Origin: Sulfitobacter alexandrii
GTDB lineage: Bacteria > Pseudomonadota > Alphaproteobacteria > Rhodobacterales > Rhodobacteraceae
Length of the DNA stretch: 64,000 nt
Assembly (NCBI RefSeq): GCF_001886735.1
Contig: NZ_CP018076.1
Location: 2,976,001-3,040,000, forward strand
Direction: 5' to 3'
In this document: one piece after another, positions 8,379 to 21,849 of the stretch
Position numbering within the stretch: the first letter of the stretch is position 1
Layout: every line of letters starts with the position of its first letter
The notes under the pieces: generated by a model
Told to the model about the DNA's origin: nothing
Database searches by the model: none
What the model saw: the letters and a program-made list of their open reading frames with translations, nothing else
Made by a program: the position numbers and the translations under genes

Positions 8379-9173
8379 ATGCTGAAACTGACCGACCTGA
8401 CCAAATCCTTTGGCCCGAATGTCGCGGTAAAGTCCGCGAACCTCGATATCGACCGGCCGTGCATGATCGGGATCATCGGCCGCTCGGGCGCTGGCAAGTC
8501 CACGCTGCTGCGCATGCTGAACCGGCTCACCGATGCCACGTCGGGCCAGATCACCTTCGAAGGCGACGACATCACCGCGCTGACCGGCAAGGCCCGGCGC
8601 GACTGGCAGTCGCGCTGCGCGATGATCTTCCAGCAGTTCAACCTCGTGCCCCGCATGGACGTGGTGTCGAACGTGCTGCACGGCACGCTCAACCGCCGCT
8701 CCACCCTCGCCAGCATGTTCAGCATCTACCCGACCTCGGACGTGCATCGCGCCATCGACATCCTCGACCGGCTGGGGATCGCCGAACACGCCACCAAGCG
8801 GGCCGAGGCGCTGTCGGGCGGCCAACAGCAGCGTGTCGCCATCGCACGGGCGCTGATGCAGGATCCCCGGATCATCCTCGCGGACGAACCCATCGCATCG
8901 CTCGACCCGATGAACGCCCAGATCGTGATGCAAAGCCTGCGCCGCATCCACGAAGAGGACGGCCGCACCATCATCGCCAACCTGCACACCCTCGACACCG
9001 CGCGCCGCTACTGCGACCGCGTGGTGGGGATGCGCGACGGCAAGATCGTCTTCGACGGCCTGCCCGAACAACTGACCACCGCGATGGCCCGCGAGATCTA
9101 CGGGGCCGACGCCTCCTTTTCCGAAGCGGCGACCTCGACCTCGATCGAAACCCTCGACCACGCACTCGCCTGA
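8379..9173 (+). CDS. phnC: Phosphonate ABC transporter, ATP-binding protein
   Basis: A 264-residue ATPase energising phosphonate import. It has Walker [10 protein letters not shown], the signature LSGGQQQR and Walker B IILADEP, followed by ASLDP. The long spacer between Q-loop and signature, containing [12 protein letters not shown], is characteristic of PhnC. It is the first gene of phnCDEE and is 57 bases upstream of phnD. Confidence 0.93.
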
Positions 9174-9230: not shown

Positions 9231-10142
9231 ATGAACAAGTTTTTCGCAGCGGCACTCGCCACCACGGCCCTGAGCACGGGCGCCCTTGCCCAGACCAACG
9301 GGATCGACGAATTCCGCATCGGCATCCTCGGCGGCGAGAACGCGCAGGACCGGCTGAACAGCTACCAGTGCCTTGCCGACTACACGTCCGAGGAACTGGG
9401 CGTGGAAACCAAGCTCTTCGCCCCCGCAGACTACAACGGCGTGATCCAGGGCCTGCTGGGCGGCACGCTGGACATGGCATGGATGGGCGCCTCGGGTTAC
9501 GCCGCCGTCTACATCCAGGACCCCGAAGCGGTCGAACCCGTGCTGGTCAAGATCAACCTCGACGGCTCCTACGGCTACCATTCCATCGGGTTCGCCCGCA
9601 AGGACAGCGGCATCACCTCGCTGGAAGACATGCAGGGCAAGGTCTTCGGCTTCGGCGACCCGAACTCCACCTCCGGCTACCTGATCCCCTCCATCGAGAT
9701 CCCGCAGGCCGGTGAAGGCATCACCATGAACTCCGGCGACTACTTCGGCGAGGTCAAGTTCACCGGCGGTCACGAGCAGACCATCGTCGCGGTTGCCAAC
9801 GGCGACATCGACGGCGGCGTGACCTGGGCCGACGGCCAGGGCAACTGGGAAGACGGCTACAACTCCGGCGCCCTGCGCAAGGCCGTGGACGCGGGCCTGG
9901 TGGACATGAACGACCTCGTGGAAATCTGGCGGTCGAAGCCGATCCCGGAAGGCCCCGTCGTGCTGCGCAAGGATCTCCCGCAAGAGGTCAAGGCCAAGAT
10001 GACCGCGCTGGTCGACAACCTTTATGAAACCGACCCCGACTGCGCCTACGGCGTGGCGGCGGGCGAGAGCCTGGGCTTCGATCCGATCACCCACGACGCC
10101 TACGTGTCGATCGTCGAAGCCCGCAAGGCCGAATCGAATTGA
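9231..10142 (+). CDS. phnD: Phosphonate ABC transporter, substrate-binding protein
   Basis: A 303-residue periplasmic phosphonate-binding protein with a signal peptide ending near ALAQ (residue 21). The MAWMGASGYAAVYIQDP stretch and the FGFGDPNSTSGYLIPS block are hallmarks of PhnD-like proteins, where the STSG turn contacts the phosphonate group. It is separated from phnE by a strong hairpin with a T run, so its transcript is probably in excess over the permease part. Confidence 0.93.
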   Translation: MNKFFAAALATTALSTGALAQTNGIDEFRIGILGGENAQDRLNSYQCLADYTSEELGVETKLFAPADYNGVIQGLLGGTLDMAWMGASGYAAVYIQDPEAVEPVLVKINLDGSYGYHSIGFARKDSGITSLEDMQGKVFGFGDPNSTSGYLIPSIEIPQAGEGITMNSGDYFGEVKFTGGHEQTIVAVANGDIDGGVTWADGQGNWEDGYNSGALRKAVDAGLVDMNDLVEIWRSKPIPEGPVVLRKDLPQEVKAKMTALVDNLYETDPDCAYGVAAGESLGFDPITHDAYVSIVEARKAESN

Positions 10143-10214: not shown

Positions 10215-11087
10215 ATGGCCGATACGACACAGGATATCCGCGGGCAGTATCTTGCCGCGATGCGTCAGAAGCGCGTCATGAACATGGTGTTGCTGATCCT
10301 GTTCGTGGCCCTGATGGTTGCCGGCTTTGCCACGGCGGACGCACGCAACGCCGGTGGCTTCTGGGACGGATGGCGCAATATCCTCGACTTTCCGGCCGAC
10401 GTGATCGGCGAGGCGCTGTCCCGCGCGCACCTGCTGCCGGGCTATTTCCTGAAATACCTGCCCTCCCTCGTCGAGACCATCAACATCGCCGCCGCGGCCA
10501 CGTTGCTGGGCGCCCTGCTGGCCCTCTTCGCCGCGCTGCTGGCGACCCGTGGCCTTGCCCCGCGAACGTGGATCGTCGCGCCCGTCCGCCGGGTGCTGGA
10601 CATCCTGCGCGCCGTGCCCGAAATCGTCATCGCCCTGATCCTGATCTTCCTTCTGGGCGGCGGACCCGTGCCCGCCATGATCGCCATCTGCCTGCATACC
10701 ATCGGGGCTTTGGGCAAACTGTTCTCCGAGGTGAACGAGAACGCGTCGCTCAAGCCGGTCGAGGGGCTCGCGTCGGTCGGGGCGTCGTGGATGCAGCGGA
10801 TGATGCTGGGCGTGGTGCCGCAGGTCGCGCCCAACTACCTCAGCTACGCGCTGCTGCGGTTCGAGATCAACATCCGCGCCTCCGCGATCCTCGGCTTCGT
10901 CGGCGCGGGCGGCATCGGCTACGACCTGCGCAACACCATGTCCTGGGGGCAGGGCAAGTTCGACGAGGCGGCGGCGATCTTCCTGCTGCTGTTCGGCGCC
11001 ATCGTGATCGTCGATCAACTCTCCAGCTATGCCCGCAACCGCCTGACCCACGGCAAGGCCTACAAGGACAAGGGAGCCATCCTGTGA
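10215..11087 (+). CDS. phnE: Phosphonate ABC transporter, permease 1
   Basis: A 290-residue inner-membrane permease with the cytoplasmic EAA-type loop around ENASLKPVEGLASVGASWMQ, which docks with PhnC. Start MADTTQDIRG was chosen because GAAAGGGG lies 5 to 12 bases upstream; an in-frame ATG five codons earlier would overlap that site. It overlaps the next permease gene by 4 bases (GTGA), which implies coupled translation of the two subunits. Confidence 0.92.
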   Translation: MADTTQDIRGQYLAAMRQKRVMNMVLLILFVALMVAGFATADARNAGGFWDGWRNILDFPADVIGEALSRAHLLPGYFLKYLPSLVETINIAAAATLLGALLALFAALLATRGLAPRTWIVAPVRRVLDILRAVPEIVIALILIFLLGGGPVPAMIAICLHTIGALGKLFSEVNENASLKPVEGLASVGASWMQRMMLGVVPQVAPNYLSYALLRFEINIRASAILGFVGAGGIGYDLRNTMSWGQGKFDEAAAIFLLLFGAIVIVDQLSSYARNRLTHGKAYKDKGAIL

Positions 11088-12373
11088 CGACCGCCAGCCT
11101 CACCCTGCAAGCCGACAAACTGATCGCCCGCAAGCGTCTCGCTGCATGCGCCGCCCCCGCGCTGATCGCTGTCTATCTGGTCTATGTCTTCTTCGCCTTC
11201 GACGTGCCCGGCCTGCGCGACCGGGTCAGCGTGGACAACATGAACACGCTGCTGCGCGACGTCTACAGCTACAAGACGCACGTCACGCAGGACAACCGCA
11301 ACGGCGAGGTCACCATCGCGATCGAGGGCGAGCGCAAGGGCGCCTATCCCGCTGGCGAAAGCCCCGACTGGGTGCGCCTCGGCCCCGCCTCCACCGTCGA
11401 TCTCGGCGGCGGGCACATCGTCACCCTTGGCGACACCGTCCGCTACGACATTCCCGGCTACGGCACCGTGACGGCGCAGCCGGGCCGAACCGGCGTCAAC
11501 GCGGAACTGCCGCCGGGCGACGTGCCGGAATGGATCAACGCATCCCGCAACCGCGTGGCGATCACCACGGACGCGGGCCGCGTCACCATCACCCGCAACC
11601 GGACCGAGGTGTTCCGCTATTTTACCGGGTGGGAACTGTTCTTCTTCACCCTCGACAGCCCGTTTCACGGGATGGGCCTGACGGAGCTGATCGCCACCGG
11701 CGACTACGGCGCGATGTGGTCCGACTTCTGGAACAACAAGATGTGGCGGCACGCGGATGTCGCATGGGCGCTGGTCGAAACCATCCTGATGGCGTTTCTC
11801 GGCACCTTCGGGGCCGCGATCATCGCGCTGCCCATGGGCTTTCTCGCCGCGCGCAACTTTACCCCGCTCGGGGCGGCACGGTTCACCGCCCGGCGCATCT
11901 TCGACTTCCTGCGCGGCGTGGATGGCCTGATATGGACCATCGTACTCAGCCGCGCCTTCGGCCCCGGTCCGCTGACCGGCTCGCTGGCGATCATGCTCAC
12001 CGACACCGGCACCTTCGGCAAGATCTTCTCCGAAGCGCTGGAGAACGTGGACGACAAGCAGATCGAGGGCATCGCCTCGACCGGGGCGGCCCCGCTGCAA
12101 CGCTACCGCTTCGGCGTGATCCCGCAGATCACCCCGGTCCTGCTGAGCCAGGTGCTCTATTACCTTGAATCCAACACCCGATCCGCCACCATCATCGGCG
12201 CGATCACCGGCGGCGGCATCGGCCTGCTGCTGACGCAGGCGATCATCACCCAGAAGGATTGGGAAGAAGTGACCTACTACATCGTGCTGATCGTGCTGAT
12301 GGTGATGGCGATGGACAGCCTGTCCGGATGGCTGCGCCGCCGCCTGATTTCCGGCGACGGAGGCGCACACTGA
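11084..12373 (+). CDS. phnE: Phosphonate ABC transporter, permease 2 (long form)
   Basis: A 429-residue permease paralogous to its neighbour, starting at a GTG that overlaps the previous stop. The C-terminal half is the membrane part with the EALENVDDKQIEGIASTGA coupling loop. After the first helix there is an insertion of about 150 residues rich in short beta-strand-like segments (for example GEVTIAIEGERKG), presumably periplasmic. Long second permeases of this sort occur in alphaproteobacterial phn operons. It ends in TGATG with the next gene. Confidence 0.9.
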   Translation: MTTASLTLQADKLIARKRLAACAAPALIAVYLVYVFFAFDVPGLRDRVSVDNMNTLLRDVYSYKTHVTQDNRNGEVTIAIEGERKGAYPAGESPDWVRLGPASTVDLGGGHIVTLGDTVRYDIPGYGTVTAQPGRTGVNAELPPGDVPEWINASRNRVAITTDAGRVTITRNRTEVFRYFTGWELFFFTLDSPFHGMGLTELIATGDYGAMWSDFWNNKMWRHADVAWALVETILMAFLGTFGAAIIALPMGFLAARNFTPLGAARFTARRIFDFLRGVDGLIWTIVLSRAFGPGPLTGSLAIMLTDTGTFGKIFSEALENVDDKQIEGIASTGAAPLQRYRFGVIPQITPVLLSQVLYYLESNTRSATIIGAITGGGIGLLLTQAIITQKDWEEVTYYIVLIVLMVMAMDSLSGWLRRRLISGDGGAH

Positions 12374-12990
12374 TGACCCGCCTGAAACCGCACCTTCCCT
12401 TCGTGCATCCCGACTGCGAAATTACCGACAGCACCTTCGGCGCCTACGTCGAGATCGGGCGCGGGTCGCGCGTGGCACACAGCCACCTGGGGGATTATTC
12501 CTACTGCGACCGCAACGCCGACATCGCCAACGCGGAGGTCGGCAAGTTCTCCAACATCGCGTCCTGCGTGCGCATCGGCGCCACCGACCATCCGATGGAA
12601 AAGGCGAGCCTGCACCACTTCCACTACCGCTCCGCGGATTATTTCGACGACGCCGAACCGGACCACGACTGGTTCGCTCACCGCCGCAGCCGCCGCGCCG
12701 TCATCGGCCATGACACATGGCTGGGTCACGGCGCGCAGGTCCGGCCCGAGGTGACCATCGGCCACGGCGCCGTCGTGGCGGGCGGCGCCATCGTGACCCG
12801 CGACGTACCCCCCTACATGATCGTCGCGGGGATCCCCGCCGTTCCCCTGCGGGTACGGTTCTCCGACACCATCGCCGACCGCCTGATGGCGCTGGCATGG
12901 TGGGACTGGCCGCATGCCCGCCTGCGCGACGCGCTGGAGGACTTCCGCGCGCTTCCGGCCGAGGCCTTCCTGGAAAGGTACGCAGGCTAG
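12373..12990 (+). CDS. Hexapeptide-repeat transferase of the phosphonate cluster
   Basis: A 205-residue left-handed beta-helix acyltransferase of the CAT/DapH-like type that recurs in phosphonate operons. The hexapeptide pattern is visible from EIGRGSRVAHSHLGDYSYC through VGKFSNIASCVRIG and again in THDTWLGHGAQVRP-like and IGHGAVVAGGAIVTRDVPP segments, with catalytic-type histidines in ATDHPMEKASLHHFHYR. It is translationally coupled to phnE by TGATG. The acceptor is unknown; acylation of an aminoalkylphosphonate, as PhnO does, is a reasonable guess. Confidence 0.85.
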   Translation: MTRLKPHLPFVHPDCEITDSTFGAYVEIGRGSRVAHSHLGDYSYCDRNADIANAEVGKFSNIASCVRIGATDHPMEKASLHHFHYRSADYFDDAEPDHDWFAHRRSRRAVIGHDTWLGHGAQVRPEVTIGHGAVVAGGAIVTRDVPPYMIVAGIPAVPLRVRFSDTIADRLMALAWWDWPHARLRDALEDFRALPAEAFLERYAG

Positions 12991-13543: not shown

Positions 13544-14254
13544 CTAGTCGCCCTCCAGCGTCAGGGTGATCCTGTCTCCCGCGAACCACGTGCTGCCGAA
13601 CTCCACCGGCCTGCCTTCGGAATCCACGTTGACCGACGTGGAAAACAGGACCGGCGCCCCCTCGCGCACCTGAAGGTGCAACGCTTGGGTCGCGGTGGCG
13701 AGCTTGGCCTTTAGCCGGGTGGACGCGCGGGTATAGTCAGGCACCCCCGACCGGCGCAGCGCCTCCGTGACGGACCCGACCGCGCCCAGATGCGCCGGCA
13801 GGTCGGGCAGGCGCGCCGCCGGGAAAACACTGGTGAAGACGGCGACGGGCAGATCGTCCGCAAGCGACAGCCCCTCGACGACATGCACCTCCGCCCCCTC
13901 TTCCAGATCGAGCAGCGTGCGTTCCGTGGGGCTCGCCGCGCGGGTCTGCATCGCGAGAAGGCGCTTGGTCGGCACCCGGCCGGCCGAACTGAGGTTCTGA
14001 TGAAAGCGGACCCGCTTGCCGATGGGATAATCCGTCGGCACCTGCGTCACGAAAACACCCGCGCCGCGCCGGGCATGGACCACCCCCCGCTCCGCCAGCG
14101 CCGCCAGCGCATGACGGACAGTGTGCCTGTTGACGCCAAACCGCGCGGCCAGCGCCGCCTCCGTCGGCAGCTTGTCACCCGGCCCGTACTGGCCGTCGGC
14201 GATCTCAGCCCCAAGGGTGTCGGCAATGGACCGCCAGATCGGGGTGCGGGGCAT
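13544..14254 (-). CDS. phnF: Phosphonate regulator, GntR family
   Basis: A 236-residue regulator with an N-terminal winged helix-turn-helix (PTEAALAARFGVNRHTVRHALAALAERG, residues about 28-55, split here by eye) and a C-terminal UTRA ligand-binding domain of the HutC subfamily. It is divergent from phnGHI and separated from phnG by about 100 bases holding a long inverted repeat. It is therefore likely to repress the C-P lyase genes and itself until an inducer binds the UTRA domain. Confidence 0.9.
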   Translation of the reverse strand: MPRTPIWRSIADTLGAEIADGQYGPGDKLPTEAALAARFGVNRHTVRHALAALAERGVVHARRGAGVFVTQVPTDYPIGKRVRFHQNLSSAGRVPTKRLLAMQTRAASPTERTLLDLEEGAEVHVVEGLSLADDLPVAVFTSVFPAARLPDLPAHLGAVGSVTEALRRSGVPDYTRASTRLKAKLATATQALHLQVREGAPVLFSTSVNVDSEGRPVEFGSTWFAGDRITLTLEGD

Positions 14255-14357: not shown

Positions 14358-14813
14358 ATGACCGCGACACAAGACCGGACCACGGATCGGCAAGGCTGGA
14401 TGAGCCTGCTTGCCAAATGCGACCCGACCGAACTGGACAGCGCCTGGCGCAGGCTCGACCGGGGCTTCGACCACCAGGTGCTGCGCGCGCCCGAGATCGG
14501 CAGCGTCATGGTCCGGGGACGGGCGGGTGCCGTCGGCGCCGCCTTCAACCTCGGCGAAGTCACGGTGACGCGCTGTTCGGTGCGCCTCTCGACCGGTGAG
14601 GACGGCCACGCCTACGTGCAGGGCCGCGACCGGACCAAGGCGCTGCGTGCGGCCTTGCTGGACGCCGCGATGCAGACCGGCGCCGCGGCCGACATCCGCG
14701 AGAAGGTGCTGGACCCGCTGGCCGCCGCCGCCCGCGAACGCCGGACGGCGCGCGCCGCCAAGGCCGCCGCGACCAAGGTCGATTTCTTCACCATGGCGCG
14801 GGGGGAGGACTGA
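14358..14813 (+). CDS. phnG: C-P lyase core subunit PhnG
   Basis: A 151-residue subunit of the PhnGHIJ complex that, with PhnL, attaches methylphosphonate to ribose triphosphate at the expense of adenine. The family block VMVRGRAGAVGAAFNLGE is present near residues 50-67. AAGGTG precedes the ATG. The stop overlaps the phnH start (TGATG). Confidence 0.93.
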   Translation: MTATQDRTTDRQGWMSLLAKCDPTELDSAWRRLDRGFDHQVLRAPEIGSVMVRGRAGAVGAAFNLGEVTVTRCSVRLSTGEDGHAYVQGRDRTKALRAALLDAAMQTGAAADIREKVLDPLAAAARERRTARAAKAAATKVDFFTMARGED

Positions 14814-15373
14814 TGCAGACCCAGGCCCTGACCGGCGGTTTCGCCGACGCCCCCATCGAGGCTGCGACCGCGTTTCGCACCATCATGCAGGTGATGGCCC
14901 GCCCCGGCGAGATCGCGTCCATCGGGGGCGCCGTGCCGCCCGCGCCGCTCTCCGTCGCGGCGGGGACGCTGCTGCTGACGCTCTGCGACCCTGACACGCC
15001 GGTCCATCTTCCGCCGGGTCACGACAGCCAGGCGATCCGCGACTGGATCACCTTCCACACCGGGGCCCCCCTTGCCGACCCGGACGGCGCCGCCTTCGCG
15101 CTGGGAACATGGGACGCGCTGGCCCCGCAGACCTTCCCCCTCGGCACGCCGGAATATCCCGACCGCTCCACCACGCTGATCGTGGAGCTGCCCGCGCTCG
15201 CCCCCGAGGGCGCCACCCTCCGCGGCCCCGGGATACGTGACACCGCGCGCCTGTCCCTGCCGGAAACGGAAAGGTTCGCGCGGAACGCCGCCCTGTTTCC
15301 GCTGGGCAACGACTTCTTCTTCACCGCCGGGCCGCATATCGCCGCGCTGCCCCGCAGCACGAGGGTTTCCTGA
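14813..15373 (+). CDS. phnH: C-P lyase core subunit PhnH
   Basis: A 186-residue PhnH homologue, the dimeric PLP-transferase-fold subunit without cofactor that binds PhnJ in the core complex. The N-terminal FADAPIEAATAFRTIMQVMARPG and the late PLGNDFFFTAGPHIAALPRSTRV blocks are typical. It overlaps both neighbours by one base in TGATG junctions, which fits equal subunit stoichiometry. Confidence 0.92.
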   Translation: MQTQALTGGFADAPIEAATAFRTIMQVMARPGEIASIGGAVPPAPLSVAAGTLLLTLCDPDTPVHLPPGHDSQAIRDWITFHTGAPLADPDGAAFALGTWDALAPQTFPLGTPEYPDRSTTLIVELPALAPEGATLRGPGIRDTARLSLPETERFARNAALFPLGNDFFFTAGPHIAALPRSTRVS

Positions 15374-16458
15374 TGTACGTCGCCGTCAAGGGAGGCGAAC
15401 ACGCCATCGACAACGCGCACGCCTGGCTCGCCGAGGAGCGCCGCGGAGACCCGCAGGTGGCCGAACTCTCCGTCGCGCAGATCCGCGAGCAGCTGAAACT
15501 GGCGGTGAACCGGGTGATGGCGGAGGGATCGCTCTTCGATCCGGACCTCGCGGCGCTGGCGATCAAGCAGTCGCGCGGCGACCTGATCGAAGCCATCTTC
15601 CTGATCCGGGCCTACCGCACGACCCTGCCCCGCTTCGGCGCGACCCGCGGCATGGACACCGGCAGCATGCACTGCGACCGCCGGGTCTCGGCCACCTTCA
15701 AGGACGCCCCCGGAGGACAGCTGCTGGGGCCCACGTTCGATTACACGCACCGCCTGCTCGATTTCACGCTGGCCGCAGAGGGCGCGCCGCCCCCCGCGCC
15801 GCGCAAGACGGCGGATCCGGCATCCGTGCCCCACATCATGGGGTTTCTCGACCGGGAAAATCTCGTCCAGGACGAACCCGCGGGATCGGCGGAGCCGGCG
15901 GACCTGACCCGCACGCCGCTGGAACTTCCCGCTGAACGGTCCTTGCGCCTGCAGGCGCTGGCGCGCGGCGACGAAGGCTTCATCCTCGGCATGGCCTATT
16001 CCACCCAGCGCGGCTACGCCCGGAACCACGCTTTCGTCGCGGAACTGCGCATCGGCACGCTGGCCGTGGAAATGGAACTGCCGGAACTGGGCTTCACCGT
16101 CGAGGTCGCCGAGATCGAGATCACGGAATGCGAGACGGTGAACCAGTTCAAGGGATCGAAGACCGAACCGCCCCAGTTCACCCGCGGTTACGGCCTCGCC
16201 TTCGGCATGTCCGAACGCAGGGCGATCTCGATGGCGCTGGTGGACCGCGCGCTGCGCTGGAAGGAACTGGGCGAAGACGACACGGGAGCCCCGACCCAGG
16301 ACGAGGAATTCGTCCTCAGCCACTCCGACAACATACAGGCAACCGGCTTTCTGGAGCACATAAAGCTGCCGCACTACGTGGACTTCCAGTCCGAGCTGGA
16401 ACTGATCAGGAAGCTGCGGCGCGACGCCACCGGCGCCGGGAAGGATGCCGCGGAATGA
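15373..16458 (+). CDS. phnI: C-P lyase core subunit PhnI
   Basis: A 361-residue PhnI, the nucleosidase component that displaces adenine from ATP to form alpha-D-ribose 1-methylphosphonate 5-triphosphate. Conserved blocks near the C-terminus, GMSERRAISMALVDRAL and LSHSDNIQATGFLEHIKLP, are clear. The operon is interrupted directly after this gene by inverted palindromes and a DUF559 gene before phnJ resumes. Confidence 0.94.
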   Translation: MYVAVKGGEHAIDNAHAWLAEERRGDPQVAELSVAQIREQLKLAVNRVMAEGSLFDPDLAALAIKQSRGDLIEAIFLIRAYRTTLPRFGATRGMDTGSMHCDRRVSATFKDAPGGQLLGPTFDYTHRLLDFTLAAEGAPPPAPRKTADPASVPHIMGFLDRENLVQDEPAGSAEPADLTRTPLELPAERSLRLQALARGDEGFILGMAYSTQRGYARNHAFVAELRIGTLAVEMELPELGFTVEVAEIEITECETVNQFKGSKTEPPQFTRGYGLAFGMSERRAISMALVDRALRWKELGEDDTGAPTQDEEFVLSHSDNIQATGFLEHIKLPHYVDFQSELELIRKLRRDATGAGKDAAE

Positions 16459-16469
16459 CCTGCGCAAAG

Positions 16470-16615
16470 CCCCCCTCGCCCCCGGCCCCTCTCCCCTCGG
16501 GGAGAGGGGAGATCCGCCCGGAGATTCGCGGACGGTATCATCTCCACGCGGTGCGTCCGGAACGACGGCGAGCCCCCTCTCCCCAAGGGGAGAGGGGGTT
16601 GGGGGTGAGGGGGCG
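16470..16615. repeat. Pair of inverted palindromic repeats (BIME-like) after phnI
   Basis: Two hairpins in mirror arrangement. The first has 11-bp arms CCCCTCTCCCC and GGGGAGAGGGG (16486-16509). The second has 12-bp arms CCCCCTCTCCCC and GGGGAGAGGGGG (16573-16598). Each carries an outer flank, CCCCCTCGCCCCC on the left and its near-complement GGGGGTGAGGGGG on the right. The two units are therefore the same element in opposite orientation, about 90 bases apart. Confidence 0.8.
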
Positions 16616-16683: not shown

Positions 16684-17028
16684 ATGTCCGGAAAACCCGC
16701 TCATATCCGCAAGGCCCGGGCGCAACGGCGCTGGATGACGCGGGCGGAAGACGTCCTGTGGCAGGCGTTGCGCAACCGTCAGGTGGCGGGTCTCAAGTTC
16801 CGTCGCAAGGCCCCCATCGCCGGGCTGGTCGTCGACTTCTTCTGTCCCGCGGCACGCCTCGTGATCGAGATCACCGGACCGGGGCAGCATGCGGTGCTGC
16901 TGGCGCGCCGGGATGCCGGCCTGCAGGCGTCGGGATATGGCGTCCTGCGCCTGTCGCGCGAACGGGTCACGTCCGACCTGGATCGCGTCCTGGCAGAGAT
17001 CGGGGCCATCGGCGGGCGCAGGATCTGA
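16684..17028 (+). CDS. DUF559 domain protein (Vsr/restriction-endonuclease-like fold)
   Basis: A 114-residue DUF559 protein. Its motifs RAEDVLWQALRNRQVAGLKFRRKAPI, VVDFFCPAARLVIEI, GQHA and YGVLRLS follow the PD-(D/E)xK-like layout of the family (split here by position: residues about 20-45, 48-62, 65-68 and 83-89). The usual E-x-D-G-x-x-H core reads IEITGPGQHA, so one acidic position is altered. It lies between phnI and phnJ, where no C-P lyase function is needed, next to a pair of inverted palindromes. Biochemical function is unknown. Confidence 0.85.
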   Translation: MSGKPAHIRKARAQRRWMTRAEDVLWQALRNRQVAGLKFRRKAPIAGLVVDFFCPAARLVIEITGPGQHAVLLARRDAGLQASGYGVLRLSRERVTSDLDRVLAEIGAIGGRRI

Positions 17029-17098: not shown

Positions 17099-17974
17099 AT
17101 GACCGACGCTGCCTACAATTTCGCCTACCTCGACGAACAGACCAAGCGCATGATCCGGCGCGCCATCCTCAAGGGCCTCGCGATCCCGGGATACCAGGTG
17201 CCGTTCGCGAGCCGGGAAATGCCGATGCCCTACGGCTGGGGCACCGGAGGGGTGCAGGTCACCGCGGCCGTACTGGTCCCCGGCGATACGCTCAAGGTCA
17301 TCGACCAGGGCGCCGACGACACAACCAACGCCGTGTCCATCCGGCGGTTCTTCGAACGGACGGCGGGTGTCGCCGCGACCGAACGGACCGCGGAGGCCAC
17401 GGTGATCCAGACCCGCCACCGGATCCCCGAAGTCCCGCTGCGCGAGGACCAGGTCCTCGTCTACCAGGTGCCCATCCCCGAACCGCTCCGGTTCCTGGAG
17501 CCGTCCGAGGTCGAGACCCGCAAGATGCACAGCCTCGAGGAATACGGATTGATGCACGTCAAGCTCTACGAGGACATCAGCCAGCACGGCGCGATCGCGA
17601 CGTCCTACGCCTATCCGGTCCGTGTCGAGGACCGCTACGTGATGGATCCCTCGCCGATCCCCAAGTTCGACAATCCGAAGCTGACCATGGACGCGATCCA
17701 GCTCTTCGGTGCGGGACGCGAGCAGCGGATCTATGCCCTGCCGCCCCACACCCGCGTGACCAGCCTCGATTTCGAGGATTTCCCCTTCGAGGCGAGCAAG
17801 GCGGATCATGCCTGCGACCTCTGCGGGGCCGTGGACAGCTATCTCGACGAGTTGATCGTCGACGACAGCGGCGGACGGCTCTTCATGTGTTCGGACACGG
17901 ATTACTGCGGGTCGCGGCGCGCGGCGGGCCACGTCGGCGCAAAAGGATCGTCCCCGAAGGAGGACGCGGCATGA
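17099..17974 (+). CDS. phnJ: C-P lyase, radical SAM subunit PhnJ
   Basis: A 291-residue enzyme that breaks the carbon-phosphorus bond of ribose methylphosphonate 5-phosphate, releasing methane (or another alkane) and the 1,2-cyclic phosphate. The diagnostic C-x2-C-x21-C-x5-C cluster is exact: CDLC, then 21 residues, then CSDTDYC. The glycine-radical region KGLAIPGYQVPFASREMPMP is near residue 25. AAAGGAG precedes the ATG. The start codon of phnK overlaps its stop (ATGA). Confidence 0.96.
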   Translation: MTDAAYNFAYLDEQTKRMIRRAILKGLAIPGYQVPFASREMPMPYGWGTGGVQVTAAVLVPGDTLKVIDQGADDTTNAVSIRRFFERTAGVAATERTAEATVIQTRHRIPEVPLREDQVLVYQVPIPEPLRFLEPSEVETRKMHSLEEYGLMHVKLYEDISQHGAIATSYAYPVRVEDRYVMDPSPIPKFDNPKLTMDAIQLFGAGREQRIYALPPHTRVTSLDFEDFPFEASKADHACDLCGAVDSYLDELIVDDSGGRLFMCSDTDYCGSRRAAGHVGAKGSSPKEDAA

Positions 17975-18741
17975 CCCCCCTGCTCCAGGTCGATTCCCTG
18001 TCGAAAAGCTACGGTCGCCGGATCGGCTGCCGCGATGTCTCCTTCGATCTCTACCCCGGCGAGGTGATGGGGATCGTCGGGGAAAGCGGATCGGGCAAGT
18101 CCACGCTGCTCAACTGCCTGGCCGGGCACCAGGCCCCCGACCGTGGCGCGGTGCGTTTCGACACCCGTGCCGGGGACCTGCGCGATACCGTCACCATGAC
18201 CGAACCGGAGCGGCGGATGCTGGGGCGCACCGACTGGGCCTTCGTGCATCAGCACGCGCGCGACGGGTTGCGGATGAACGTCAGCGCCGGGGGCAACGTG
18301 GGCGAGCGGCTGATGGCCGTCGGGGCACGGCACTACGGCGACATCCGGGCCAACGCGGCCGACTGGCTGGGGCGTGTGGAGATTGCCGAAGACCGGATCG
18401 ACGACCGGCCCAGCGCCTTTTCGGGCGGCATGCAGCAGCGCCTCCAGATCGCCCGCAACCTCGTCACCGGGCCCCGGCTGGTGTTCATGGACGAACCGAC
18501 CGGCGGACTGGACGTGAGCGTGCAGGCCCGGCTGCTCGACCTCCTGCGTGGCCTTGTGCGCGAGATGGGTCTCAGCGCGATCATCGTGACCCACGATCTT
18601 GCCGTGGTCCGGCTGCTTGCCGATCGGCTGATGGTGATGAAGGACGGTCACGTCGTCGAAACCGGGCTCACCGATCAGGTGCTGGACGACCCGCAGCACG
18701 GCTATACGCAGCTGCTGGTGTCTTCCGTGCTTCAGGTATGA
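17971..18741 (+). CDS. phnK: C-P lyase complex ATPase PhnK
   Basis: A 256-residue ABC-type ATPase that docks on the PhnGHIJ core rather than on a membrane transporter. Walker A is GESGSGKST, the signature FSGGMQQR, and Walker [13 protein letters not shown]. The start overlaps the phnJ stop. It resembles dipeptide-transporter ATPases, as known PhnK proteins do. Confidence 0.93.
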
Positions 18742-18775: not shown

Positions 18776-19456
18776 ATGATTCACGTCGAAAATCTCTGCA
18801 AGTCCTTCACGCTCCACAACCAGGGCGGCACCGTCATCCCGGTGATGGAGAACGCGGCCCTTTCGGTTGCCGCCGGGGAATGTGTCGGGCTGATCGGCGC
18901 ATCCGGCGCGGGAAAGTCGACGCTGATGCGCATGCTCTACGGCAACTACCTCGCCGCCTCCGGCAGCATCCGGATCGGCGAGGTGGACGTGGCGCGGGCG
19001 GCGCCGCGCGACATTCTCGCCCTGCGCCGCGACACCCTCGGCTACGTCAGCCAGTTCCTGCGGGTCGTGCCGCGGGTGCCGACGCTCGACGTGGTGGCGG
19101 AACCGCTGCTGCGGACCGGGCATGACACCGGGGCGGCGCGTGCCCGCGCGGGCGACCTTCTGGCCCGGCTGAACATACCCCAACGGCTCTGGCGGCTGAG
19201 CCCCACGACCTTTTCGGGGGGCGAGCAGCAGCGCGTGAACATCGCCCGCGGCTTTGCCCATGCCTTTCCCGTGCTTCTGCTGGACGAACCGACGGCGAGC
19301 CTTGATGCGGCCAACCGGGAAACCGTCCTCGCGCTGATCGAAGAGGCCAAGGCCCGCGGCGCGGCCATCGTCGGCATCTTCCACGACGAGGCGGCGCGCG
19401 CCAGGGTCTGCGACCGCGAGGTGGACGTGACCCGCTTCACCCCGGGGCTGTCGTGA
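18776..19456 (+). CDS. phnL: C-P lyase complex ATPase PhnL
   Basis: A 226-residue ABC-type ATPase with Walker [10 protein letters not shown], the signature FSGGEQQR and Walker [13 protein letters not shown]. PhnL works with the core in the initial nucleosidase step. It starts 35 bases after phnK and overlaps phnN by four bases (GTGA). Confidence 0.93.
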
Positions 19457-19998
19457 CGGAGGGCCGGTTCATCGCCGTGGTGGGGCCGTCCGGGGTCGGC
19501 AAGGATTCCGTGATGGCCGGGATGGTGGCGCGCGTGCCCGCGCTGGTCGCGGTGCGCCGGGTCATCACCCGGCCCCCCGGCGCCGGGGGCGAGGTGTTCG
19601 AACCCGAGGACGACGCGGGTTTCGAACGCCGCCGCGCGCAGGGCGATTTCGTGCTTCACTGGCAGGCCCACGGGCTGCGCTACGGGATTCCGGCCGGGAC
19701 CACCGCGCTGACGGCGCAGGGCCGCGACGTGCTGGCCAACCTCTCGCGGTCCGTCCTGGCCGAGGCCCATCGCCGGTTTCCGCGCCTGACCGTCCTGTCG
19801 CTCACCGCCGATCCCGAGGTTCTGGAAACACGGCTTCACGCCCGCCGGCGCGAGACGCCCGCCCAGATCGGGTCGCGGCTGGCACGGGCGGACGTCGCGC
19901 TGCCCCCCGGCATCGATGTCGTGTCGATCGACAACTCGGGCCTGCTGGAAGATACGGTCACCCGCGCGCTTGCCGCGCTCTACCCGGTGAGGGCGTAG
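19453..19998 (+). CDS. phnN: Ribose 1,5-bisphosphokinase
   Basis: A 181-residue guanylate-kinase-fold enzyme that phosphorylates ribose 1,5-bisphosphate to PRPP, returning C-P lyase product to nucleotide synthesis. The P-loop is GPSGVGKDS near residue 11 and the RRVITRPP segment follows. The start is a GTG inside the phnL stop overlap. Its last 19 bases overlap the 3' end of the convergent DUF1045 gene. Confidence 0.93.
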
Positions 19999-20648
19999 TC
20001 TTGGAGGGTTTCGAACATCCCGTCGTGCCGTTCCCCGACGAGCGTCAGGCCATCCAGCACGAAGGGCGCCGGCAGGCAGTCCTCGAAATGCGCGGTGGCC
20101 ACGGGGCGCACCGTGTCGGGCCGCGCCACCCGTCCCGTCAGCGTCATGTGAAACCGGAACAGGTCCAGCACGTGGGGATAGCCCCAGTCACGCAGGTTGC
20201 GCTCCTGCTCGGGCGACAGGGGGCTGGCCCGGCGTCGCGCCAGTTCCTCGGCCGTGGCGGGCGCGCGATAGCCGTCCAGCTGCATCACGGCCTCGCTGGC
20301 GAGGTCGTTCAGCGCCTGCTGGTCGCCCGTGGGCGTCAGCGCCAAGAACCGGCCCAGAGTGCTGACCTGCAAACCGTCCAGCGTGACCGGCGCGAACTGC
20401 GCGCAGAACCGGGCCACCGCCTGGGACAGATCCGCCACGTCGGTGCCGGCCGCGAGGGTGAAGGGCGGCTTGATCGTGGCATGGAACCCGTACTTGCGCG
20501 GCGTTGCCGTGAGGGTGGCCAAATCTTCGCCCGGCAGGTCGGGCTGGTCCACGCTCCGGCCCGAGGCGATGTCCCACCCGAGCCATGCGGCGCCCCTGTC
20601 CGCCAGCGCGCCGCGGGGCGTGTAATAGACCGCATACCGTTTGAACAT
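19980..20648 (-). CDS. DUF1045 phosphonate-metabolism protein with two HxTx motifs (candidate cyclic phosphodiesterase)
   Basis: A 222-residue protein of the DUF1045 family regularly found in phn clusters. Two motifs, H56-A-T-I in GFHATIKPPF and H167-M-T-L in RFHMTLTGRV, sit about 110 residues apart with beta-strand-like surroundings. This is the arrangement of the 2H phosphoesterase superfamily. Start MFKRYAVYYTP was chosen as the conserved beginning; upstream codons overlap the divergent phnM leader. No phnP is seen in this cluster, so a role in opening the ribose 1,2-cyclic phosphate made by PhnJ is proposed. That role is inference. Confidence 0.85.
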   Translation of the reverse strand: MFKRYAVYYTPRGALADRGAAWLGWDIASGRSVDQPDLPGEDLATLTATPRKYGFHATIKPPFTLAAGTDVADLSQAVARFCAQFAPVTLDGLQVSTLGRFLALTPTGDQQALNDLASEAVMQLDGYRAPATAEELARRRASPLSPEQERNLRDWGYPHVLDLFRFHMTLTGRVARPDTVRPVATAHFEDCLPAPFVLDGLTLVGERHDGMFETLQDYALTG

Positions 20649-20703: not shown

Positions 20704-21849
20704 ATGACACAAGAGACCGTTTTCACGAATGCCCGCATCGTCCTGCCGACCGAAGTGGTGCGCGGCACGCTGGTGACAAGGGACGGATGGATCGCCGATA
20801 TCTCCCACGGGTCCAGCGCCGTGCCCGGGGCCATGGACTGCGCGGGTGATTACCTCTGCCCCGGCCTGATCGAATTGCATACCGACAACCTCGAACGGCA
20901 CATGGCCCCCCGCCCCAAGGTGGACTGGCCCCATCGCGCCGCCATCCTCGCCCACGACCGCGAGCTGGCGGGCACCGGCATCACCACCGTGTTCGACGCG
21001 ATCCGGGTCGGGTCCATCATCTCCGACGGCAACCGGCGGTACGGCAAGTACGCCCGCCAGATGGCGGACGAGATCCTCGGCATGCGCGCCGCCGGCGTGC
21101 TCAAGATCAGCCACCACATCCACCTCAGGGCCGAGATCTGCTCGGAAACGCTGGTCGAGGAAATGGCGGAGTTCGGCCCCGCCGACAAGATCGGGATCGT
21201 GTCGCTGATGGACCATACGCCCGGCCAGCGCCAGTTCCGCGACCTCGACAAGTTCCGCGACTACGTCTGTGGCAAGCACGGCATGTCCGCCGAAGGCTTC
21301 GACGCCTACCGCGATTTCCTCTACGGGTTGCAGGCCCGGCTGGGCGATGCCCACGAGGCAGCGGCGGTCGCCGCCGCGCACCGCTACGGCGCGACACTGG
21401 CCAGCCACGACGACACGACGACCGGCCAGGTGGACAAGAGTCACGCGCAGGGCGTCAGCATCGCCGAATTTCCCACCACCCTCGAAGCGGCGGAGACCTG
21501 CCACGACCACGGCATCGCCACGATCATGGGCGCGCCGAACCTCGTGCGTGGCGGGTCGCACTCGGGCAACGTGGCCGCCCGCACGCTGGCCGAGGCCGAC
21601 CGGCTGGACATCCTGTCATCGGACTACGTTCCGGCAGCCCTGATGCAGGGCGCGCTGATCCTCGATGAACTCTGGGGCGACCTGCCCCGTGCGATTGCGA
21701 CCGTCACCGCGACCCCGGCGGCCCATGTCGGGCTGCAGGACCGCGGCGCGCTGACACTGGGCAAACGCGCCGACATCGTGCGGTTCACGACGCTTGAGCG
21801 TTACCCGGTCGTCAAATCCGTCTGGGTCCGGGGCGTCCGGGTGTCCTGA
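20704..21849 (+). CDS. phnM: Alpha-D-ribose 1-methylphosphonate 5-triphosphate diphosphatase
   Basis: A 381-residue amidohydrolase-superfamily enzyme that removes pyrophosphate from the PhnGHIL product to give the PhnJ substrate. Visible family marks are LCPGLIELHTDNLERH near residue 60, the HDDTT metal site, and SSDYVPAALMQGA near the C-terminus. It is divergent from the DUF1045 gene with only about 55 bases between start codons, so they may share a control region. Confidence 0.95.
   Translation: MTQETVFTNARIVLPTEVVRGTLVTRDGWIADISHGSSAVPGAMDCAGDYLCPGLIELHTDNLERHMAPRPKVDWPHRAAILAHDRELAGTGITTVFDAIRVGSIISDGNRRYGKYARQMADEILGMRAAGVLKISHHIHLRAEICSETLVEEMAEFGPADKIGIVSLMDHTPGQRQFRDLDKFRDYVCGKHGMSAEGFDAYRDFLYGLQARLGDAHEAAAVAAAHRYGATLASHDDTTTGQVDKSHAQGVSIAEFPTTLEAAETCHDHGIATIMGAPNLVRGGSHSGNVAARTLAEADRLDILSSDYVPAALMQGALILDELWGDLPRAIATVTATPAAHVGLQDRGALTLGKRADIVRFTTLERYPVVKSVWVRGVRVS

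Follow-up and report, generated by a model that had tools for sequence, protein, structure and literature searches.

How is the cyclic phosphate made by carbon-phosphorus (C-P) lyase opened in bacteria whose phosphonate cluster lacks phnP? In Escherichia coli, according to the accessible text of published papers, PhnJ forms 5-phosphoribosyl 1,2-cyclic phosphate (PRcP), which PhnP opens to the substrate of PhnN. The question is raised by the phn cluster of Sulfitobacter alexandrii, which lies in a stretch of 64,000 nucleotides (contig NZ_CP018076.1, 2,976,001 to 3,040,000; hereafter the window). A preliminary description of the window had listed phnG to phnN and phnM, reported phnP as missing and proposed that a DUF1045 protein replaces it across alphaproteobacteria. 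Both statements on gene content were correct: phnG, H, I, J, K, L, N and M could be assigned by family, and the top match to the PhnP model TIGR03307 in the same genome scored 39.6 bits (cut-off 272) and was encoded remote from the cluster. With a probability of roughly 0.84, we infer from motifs, predicted fold, conservation, genome distribution and neighbourhood that the DUF1045 protein is a 2H cyclic phosphodiesterase, which takes over the PhnP step.

The DUF1045 protein and its predicted fold

The open reading frame (ORF) at 19980..20648 proved to be genuine. It starts with ATG, encodes 222 amino acids and is located on the minus strand, a detail absent from the earlier account. The gene sits between phnN and phnM as described, tail to tail with phnN (19453-19998), whose 3′ end it overlaps by 19 bp, and head to head with phnM, 55 bp separating both starts. 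The two motifs H56-A57-T58-I59 (codons 20472..20483, minus strand) and H167-M168-T169-L170 (codons 20139..20150, minus strand; both calculated from the ORF) are present in the translation exactly as claimed. In 20,000 shuffles of the protein, two H-x-S/T motifs spaced by 80-140 residues, with x being hydrophobic or small residues, arose in 0.35%.

Comparison with protein families revealed membership in DUF1045 (PF06299, E 2e-53) and, by the curated cut-off of 248.95, in TIGR03223, 'putative phosphonate metabolism protein' (251.3 bits). TIGR03223 was the sole NCBIfam match, and none to TIGR03307 was obtained at E 0.001. The protein may work like PhnP, yet it is not a PhnP. Two models of the 2H superfamily were barely reached, 2_5_RNA_ligase2 with 27.4 bits (cut-off 27) and LigT_PEase with 23.3 bits (cut-off 23.3). 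Among named database entries, the closest relative comes from Sulfitobacter (81% identity); no relatives turned up when viral contigs were scanned.

When the family profile was compared with the sequences of solved structures, nothing significant was detected (best YjcG, E 0.27), and the fold assignment therefore rests on a predicted model. This model (predicted local distance difference test score 96.5) resembles YjcG, LigT, cyclic phosphodiesterase (CPDase) and Usb1 in VIA-align and YjcG, CPDase and LigT in Foldseek. A LigT-like 2H fold together with two conserved H-x-T/S-x motifs bears out the 2H phosphoesterase design, which had been deduced from the motifs. The plant/yeast CPDase shares the fold at 14% identity, with LigT and YjcG scoring equally well; it acts in another cellular context, and the substrate of the window protein is a predicted one. 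To our knowledge, E. coli LigT and Bacillus subtilis YjcG are not tied to phosphonate clusters, their substrates being other or unknown. We aligned 47 of 58 extracted DUF1045 proteins with that of the window, excluding duplicates, near-copies and one protein cut by a contig end. H56, T58 and H167 were invariant and position 169 was T or S in all 48 proteins. R4, Y53, R128 and Y157 were invariant as well, and K60 and R139 nearly so.

The gene product would thus be a 2H-type phosphoribosyl 1,2-cyclic phosphate phosphodiesterase replacing PhnP at its step. H56/T58 and H167/T169 would bind the cyclic phosphate and supply general base and acid in a metal-free reaction, while R4, Y53, R128, Y157, K60 and R139 are candidate substrate grips, perhaps for the 5-phosphate. 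The acid-base mechanism, the regiochemistry and the functions given to the basic residues are all predicted. PhnN would convert the predicted product, ribose 1,5-bisphosphate, to phosphoribosyl pyrophosphate (PRPP). The reaction is predicted to be the same as that of E. coli PhnP, which has a metallo-beta-lactamase fold unlike the DUF1045 protein. PhnPP, a cyclic phosphate dihydrolase of the PHP family with a different fold and product, is a further alternative to PhnP for this intermediate.

Distribution of DUF1045 and phnP

The occurrence of both genes was compared in two genome samples, after removal of two rows below cut-off (G098 for DUF1045, G319 for PhnJ). Among 289 alphaproteobacterial genomes (sample 1), 53 contained PhnJ and 67 contained DUF1045 over cut-off, with 52 having both; PhnP over cut-off was found in none of the 289. 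Sample 2 comprised 328 genomes of the phylum, 77 with PhnJ over cut-off, nine of which overlapped sample 1. The 68 new PhnJ genomes (44 alphaproteobacterial, 24 other) contained DUF1045 in 48 and PhnP in 18 cases, both in none and neither in two. In the pooled set of 121 phnJ genomes, 100 had DUF1045 only, 18 PhnP only and three neither (G135, G573, G576). Frequent co-occurrence of DUF1045 with an intact phnP, named beforehand as an argument against replacement, was not observed (0/121 with both). PhnP above cut-off was absent from all 97 alphaproteobacterial phnJ genomes, and the 24 others had PhnP in 18, DUF1045 in four and neither in two. These data support the proposed replacement of phnP across alphaproteobacteria. 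If it is true, the gap is closed in 100 of the 121 sampled phnJ genomes.

DUF1045 and phnJ are no more than 15 kb apart in 42 of the 52 genomes of sample 1 with both; among the remaining ten, one has them separated by 363 kb and the rest on different contigs. phnN and DUF1045 lie within 600 bp of each other in 32 of 47 genomes with both located, 24 times tail to tail and eight times in line. PhnP likewise adjoins phnN in all six genomes with both positions at hand (of 18 PhnP genomes). In the four non-alphaproteobacterial clusters with DUF1045, the gene is found between phnF and phnN, one of them having a phnM-like gene between phnF and DUF1045. The best 80 of 592 named phnJ loci, mostly from Rhodobacteraceae, contained DUF1045 in 66 cases, 56 of them in the window order phnN, DUF1045, phnM; tblastn with two PhnP queries at 1e-8 detected no PhnP in these 80. 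For 11 of the 14 named loci without local DUF1045, a whole-genome search located the gene elsewhere. In L204, one of the three left, a terminal stretch of 20 residues may be a DUF1045 tail (E 0.10). L197, the second, is a 4.3-kb contig, and in L201, which comes from a 2.3-Mb metagenome bin, phnN adjoins phnM and no DUF1045 was found.

In some further gene arrangements, ORFs were named by eye. In L228, L229 and L230, DUF1045 outside the phn cluster adjoins an ORF resembling a second PhnM. G135 has PHP-like and metallophosphoesterase-like ORFs close to its phn genes. Two small AT-rich genomes (L083, L084) carry phnGHIJKLM clusters without phnN or local DUF1045; a similar TIM-barrel-like ORF is nearby in both, and a PHP-like and metallophosphoesterase-like ORF in one. 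A contig with two extra phnJ copies (G436:C103) bears fragmented DUF1045 matches. Outside the alphaproteobacteria, the loci of both genomes that have neither DUF1045 nor PhnP were searched for PhnP remnants by tblastn, which revealed none in L132 and matches at chance level only (E above 1) in L131.

The same role has been proposed in print. A review (PMC10574752) describes a survey in SEED in which 27 of 54 phnM operons had phnP and 16 phnP-less operons had rcsF; it adds that the 2H family of rcsF could process PRcP, with reference to Podzelinska 2009. The available part of PMC3840354 makes the same 2H proposal for the PRcP step and describes fosmid B3_TF_MPn_2, without phnP and with a 2H gene, which lets E. 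coli deleted for phnHIJKLMNOP grow on methylphosphonate, a compound from which C-P lyase releases methane in the sea. Because E. coli phnP strains do not make phosphorus usable (PMC3463581, available text), this growth would point to a phnP replacement on the fosmid. Excerpts of PMC5649143 mention rcsF among the phn genes of a marine Roseovarius and note that Sulfitobacter clusters resemble that of the fosmid. According to the part of PMC8235418 at hand, DUF1045 was proposed as phosphoribosyl cyclic phosphodiesterase by a 2014 review. As far as these texts go, there is no essential difference between the 'RcsF' 2H phosphoesterase and the window protein; we equate the two by superfamily and position rather than by sequence. 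DUF1045 as PhnP replacement is probably right, yet it is an established proposal and not a discovery.

Competing explanations and DUF1045 without phnJ

Several observations weigh against the assignment of DUF1045 to the PhnP step. A PhnJ tree was built from 54 proteins, 30 drawn from the 97 alphaproteobacterial genomes plus those of all 24 others; on it, four changes suffice to explain the three states, and two independent pairs on supported branches gave a sign test p of 1. The exclusivity is clumped and rests on few independent events, and for this reason we did not rely on its Fisher value of 1e-18. PhnJ of the four non-alphaproteobacterial DUF1045 genomes fell within a supported group of 22, which otherwise consists of alphaproteobacterial DUF1045 genomes. 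Two flavours of the whole cluster seem to exist, each moving as a unit. In keeping with this, DUF1045 occurs on 146 plasmid records; of the 12 listed, ten have phnN annotated beneath the match and two carry no annotation. Three phnJ genomes have neither gene, and G216, counted among the 100, contains only a divergent copy, 20% identical to that of the window, outside its phn cluster. PhnN (E <= 1e-20; 80 genomes searched) was detected in 43 of 53 alphaproteobacterial and 12 of 12 other phnJ genomes and in none of 15 DUF1045 genomes without phnJ, with 36 first-look candidates scored per search for PhnN and 20 for PhnM, and some absences could be misses. Nine of the ten alphaproteobacterial phnJ genomes without detected PhnN have DUF1045; the PhnN step is therefore not universal. 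Moreover, 15 of the 67 DUF1045 genomes of sample 1 lack phnJ, so that the PhnP step may not be the sole job of the protein. Among the entries displayed by a literature search, with most subscription papers outside its coverage, none described PRcP being assayed with a DUF1045 protein.

The ring might instead be opened by a different enzyme, a metallo-beta-lactamase-like relative of PhnP that has a housekeeping role and whose gene is remote from the cluster, with DUF1045 having another role in phosphonate use. The 39.6-bit protein of the S. alexandrii genome (G000:C1:2296102-2296875), matched in two pieces and metallo-beta-lactamase-like by eye, would be such a candidate. Distant relatives of this kind (E <= 1e-13, up to 102 bits compared with the cut-off of 272) occur in 171 of 289 alphaproteobacterial genomes. 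They are commoner with phnJ (40/53) than without (131/236; p 0.008) and could therefore perform the ring opening, which also counts against DUF1045. However, this leaves them in 131 phnJ-less genomes, and 13 of the 53 phnJ genomes, including that of the window, have none at this threshold. No match reaches the PhnP cut-off (0/289), whereas DUF1045 is present in 52 of 53 phnJ genomes, and the phnP-less fosmid is functional in E. coli (PMC3840354), although it may carry such a gene of its own. We regard this explanation as improbable. The DUF1045 protein might also act mainly on ADP-ribose or RNA cyclic phosphates and not on PRcP. LigT, CPDase and Usb1 are among its fold neighbours, DUF1045 persists without phnJ, and KptA is present in 6 of 67 DUF1045 genomes vs 4 of 222 others (p 0.012), the S. 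alexandrii genome being one with KptA. Yet KptA is absent from 61 of the 67, including all 15 without phnJ, and the tie of DUF1045 to phnJ (52/53) is far stronger, making such a main activity improbable. KptA was likewise rejected as an explanation for phnJ-less DUF1045, as it occurs in 0/15 such genomes. The KptA-type 2′-phosphotransferase of S. alexandrii is encoded at G000:C1:1516094-1516579; ten of the 289 alphaproteobacteria have KptA.

DUF1045 in genomes without C-P lyase poses a side question that is compatible with a PhnP-like role. In 80 further genomes taken as phnJ-less, DUF1045 was found in four (4/10 alphaproteobacteria, 0/70 others). It might be the leftover of a lost or moving cluster without a second role, for which we see slightly less than an even chance. 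As repeated loss would give, the phnJ-less genomes occupy several positions on a DUF1045 tree of low resolution (12 of 49 branches supported), one being the sister of the window's own protein, and the plasmid records would fit a moving cluster. Against this view, all 15 phnJ-less proteins of sample 1 retain H56, T58, H167 and T or S at 169. PhnM (E <= 1e-20) is present in 13 of 19 phnJ-less DUF1045 genomes (eight over the family cut-off, two only split or partial), but in none of 61 hand-picked alphaproteobacteria without phnJ and DUF1045, and adjoins DUF1045 in five of the 13 (G032, G138, G209, G219, G369). Two species of one genus also have a phnF-phnM-DUF1045 mini-locus in common (L092, 7839-10453; L096, 9852-12576), and no phnJ or phnN was found in their genomes. 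The phnM and DUF1045 ORFs of L092 share four bases. Between the two species, DUF1045 has 0.22 nonsynonymous (dN) and 1.3 synonymous (dS) substitutions per site and is under purifying selection.

Tentatively, and with odds we place clearly below even, DUF1045 and PhnM might form a C-P-lyase-independent module in alphaproteobacteria, kept by purifying selection without phnJ or detected phnN, which clears ribosyl 1,2-cyclic phosphates of other origin. Its PhnP-like use with C-P lyase would then be a special case for an enzyme of broader repair or salvage. Chemical breakdown of PRPP or an unknown PhnM product could, for example, provide the substrate. Should DUF1045 function in the absence of C-P lyase as well, cells would contain an unaccounted source of ribose cyclic phosphate. 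A weak phrase search found no paper on phnM without phnJ, and we did not find a DUF1045-PhnM pair outliving C-P lyase in print. Three small AT-rich genomes have divergent DUF1045 proteins, 19-20% identical to that of the window, downstream of the same 318-residue gene, with phnJ in one and not in two. In a genus-mate of S. alexandrii without phnJ (L086, G131), DUF1045 (54% identical) was seen by eye beside apparent glycogen metabolism genes.

The phn cluster of the window

The cluster has the order phnC, D, E1, E2, hexapeptide transferase, phnF, G, H, I, DUF559 gene, phnJ, K, L, N, DUF1045, phnM. All genes except phnF and DUF1045 for which a strand was recorded are on the plus strand. The transporter ATPase gene phnC (8379..9173) was assigned by position and an ABC_tran match only. 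It is followed by genes for the substrate-binding protein PhnD (9231..10142; TIGR03431, 324 bits, cut-off 261) and the permeases PhnE1 (10215..11087) and PhnE2 (11087..12373, start approximate), which matched TIGR01097 with 253 and 232 bits (cut-off 216.7). The phosphonate-cluster hexapeptide transferase (12370..12990; TIGR03308, 302 bits, cut-off 202) occurs in many of the best 80 of 592 named phn loci. The regulator gene phnF (13544..14254; TIGR02325, 237 bits, cut-off 156.8) is on the minus strand.

The C-P lyase genes comprise phnG (14358..14813; TIGR03293, 165 bits, cut-off 89), phnH (14813..15373; TIGR03292, 145 bits, cut-off 91.5), phnI (15373..16458; PF05861, 533 bits) and phnJ (17099..17974; PF06007, 469.6 bits), encoding the C-P lyase responsible for the cyclic phosphate. 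Downstream are phnK (17971..18741, start read from the sequence; TIGR02323, 390 bits, cut-off 302.85), phnL (18776..19456; TIGR02324, 320 bits, cut-off 256) and phnN for ribose 1,5-bisphosphokinase, which would use the predicted DUF1045 product (TIGR02322, 167.7 bits, cut-off 156). The phnM ORF opens at 20641, and the ATG of MTQETVF at 20704 was taken as start (20704..21849; TIGR02318, 439.8 bits, cut-off 390.55). A DUF559 gene (16684-17028) lies between phnI and phnJ, directly preceded by a near-identical pair of 24-nt palindromic repeats (CCCCTCTCCCC..GGGGAGAGGGG) at 16486-16509 and 16574-16597. Gene and repeats together look like an insertion within the phn operon.
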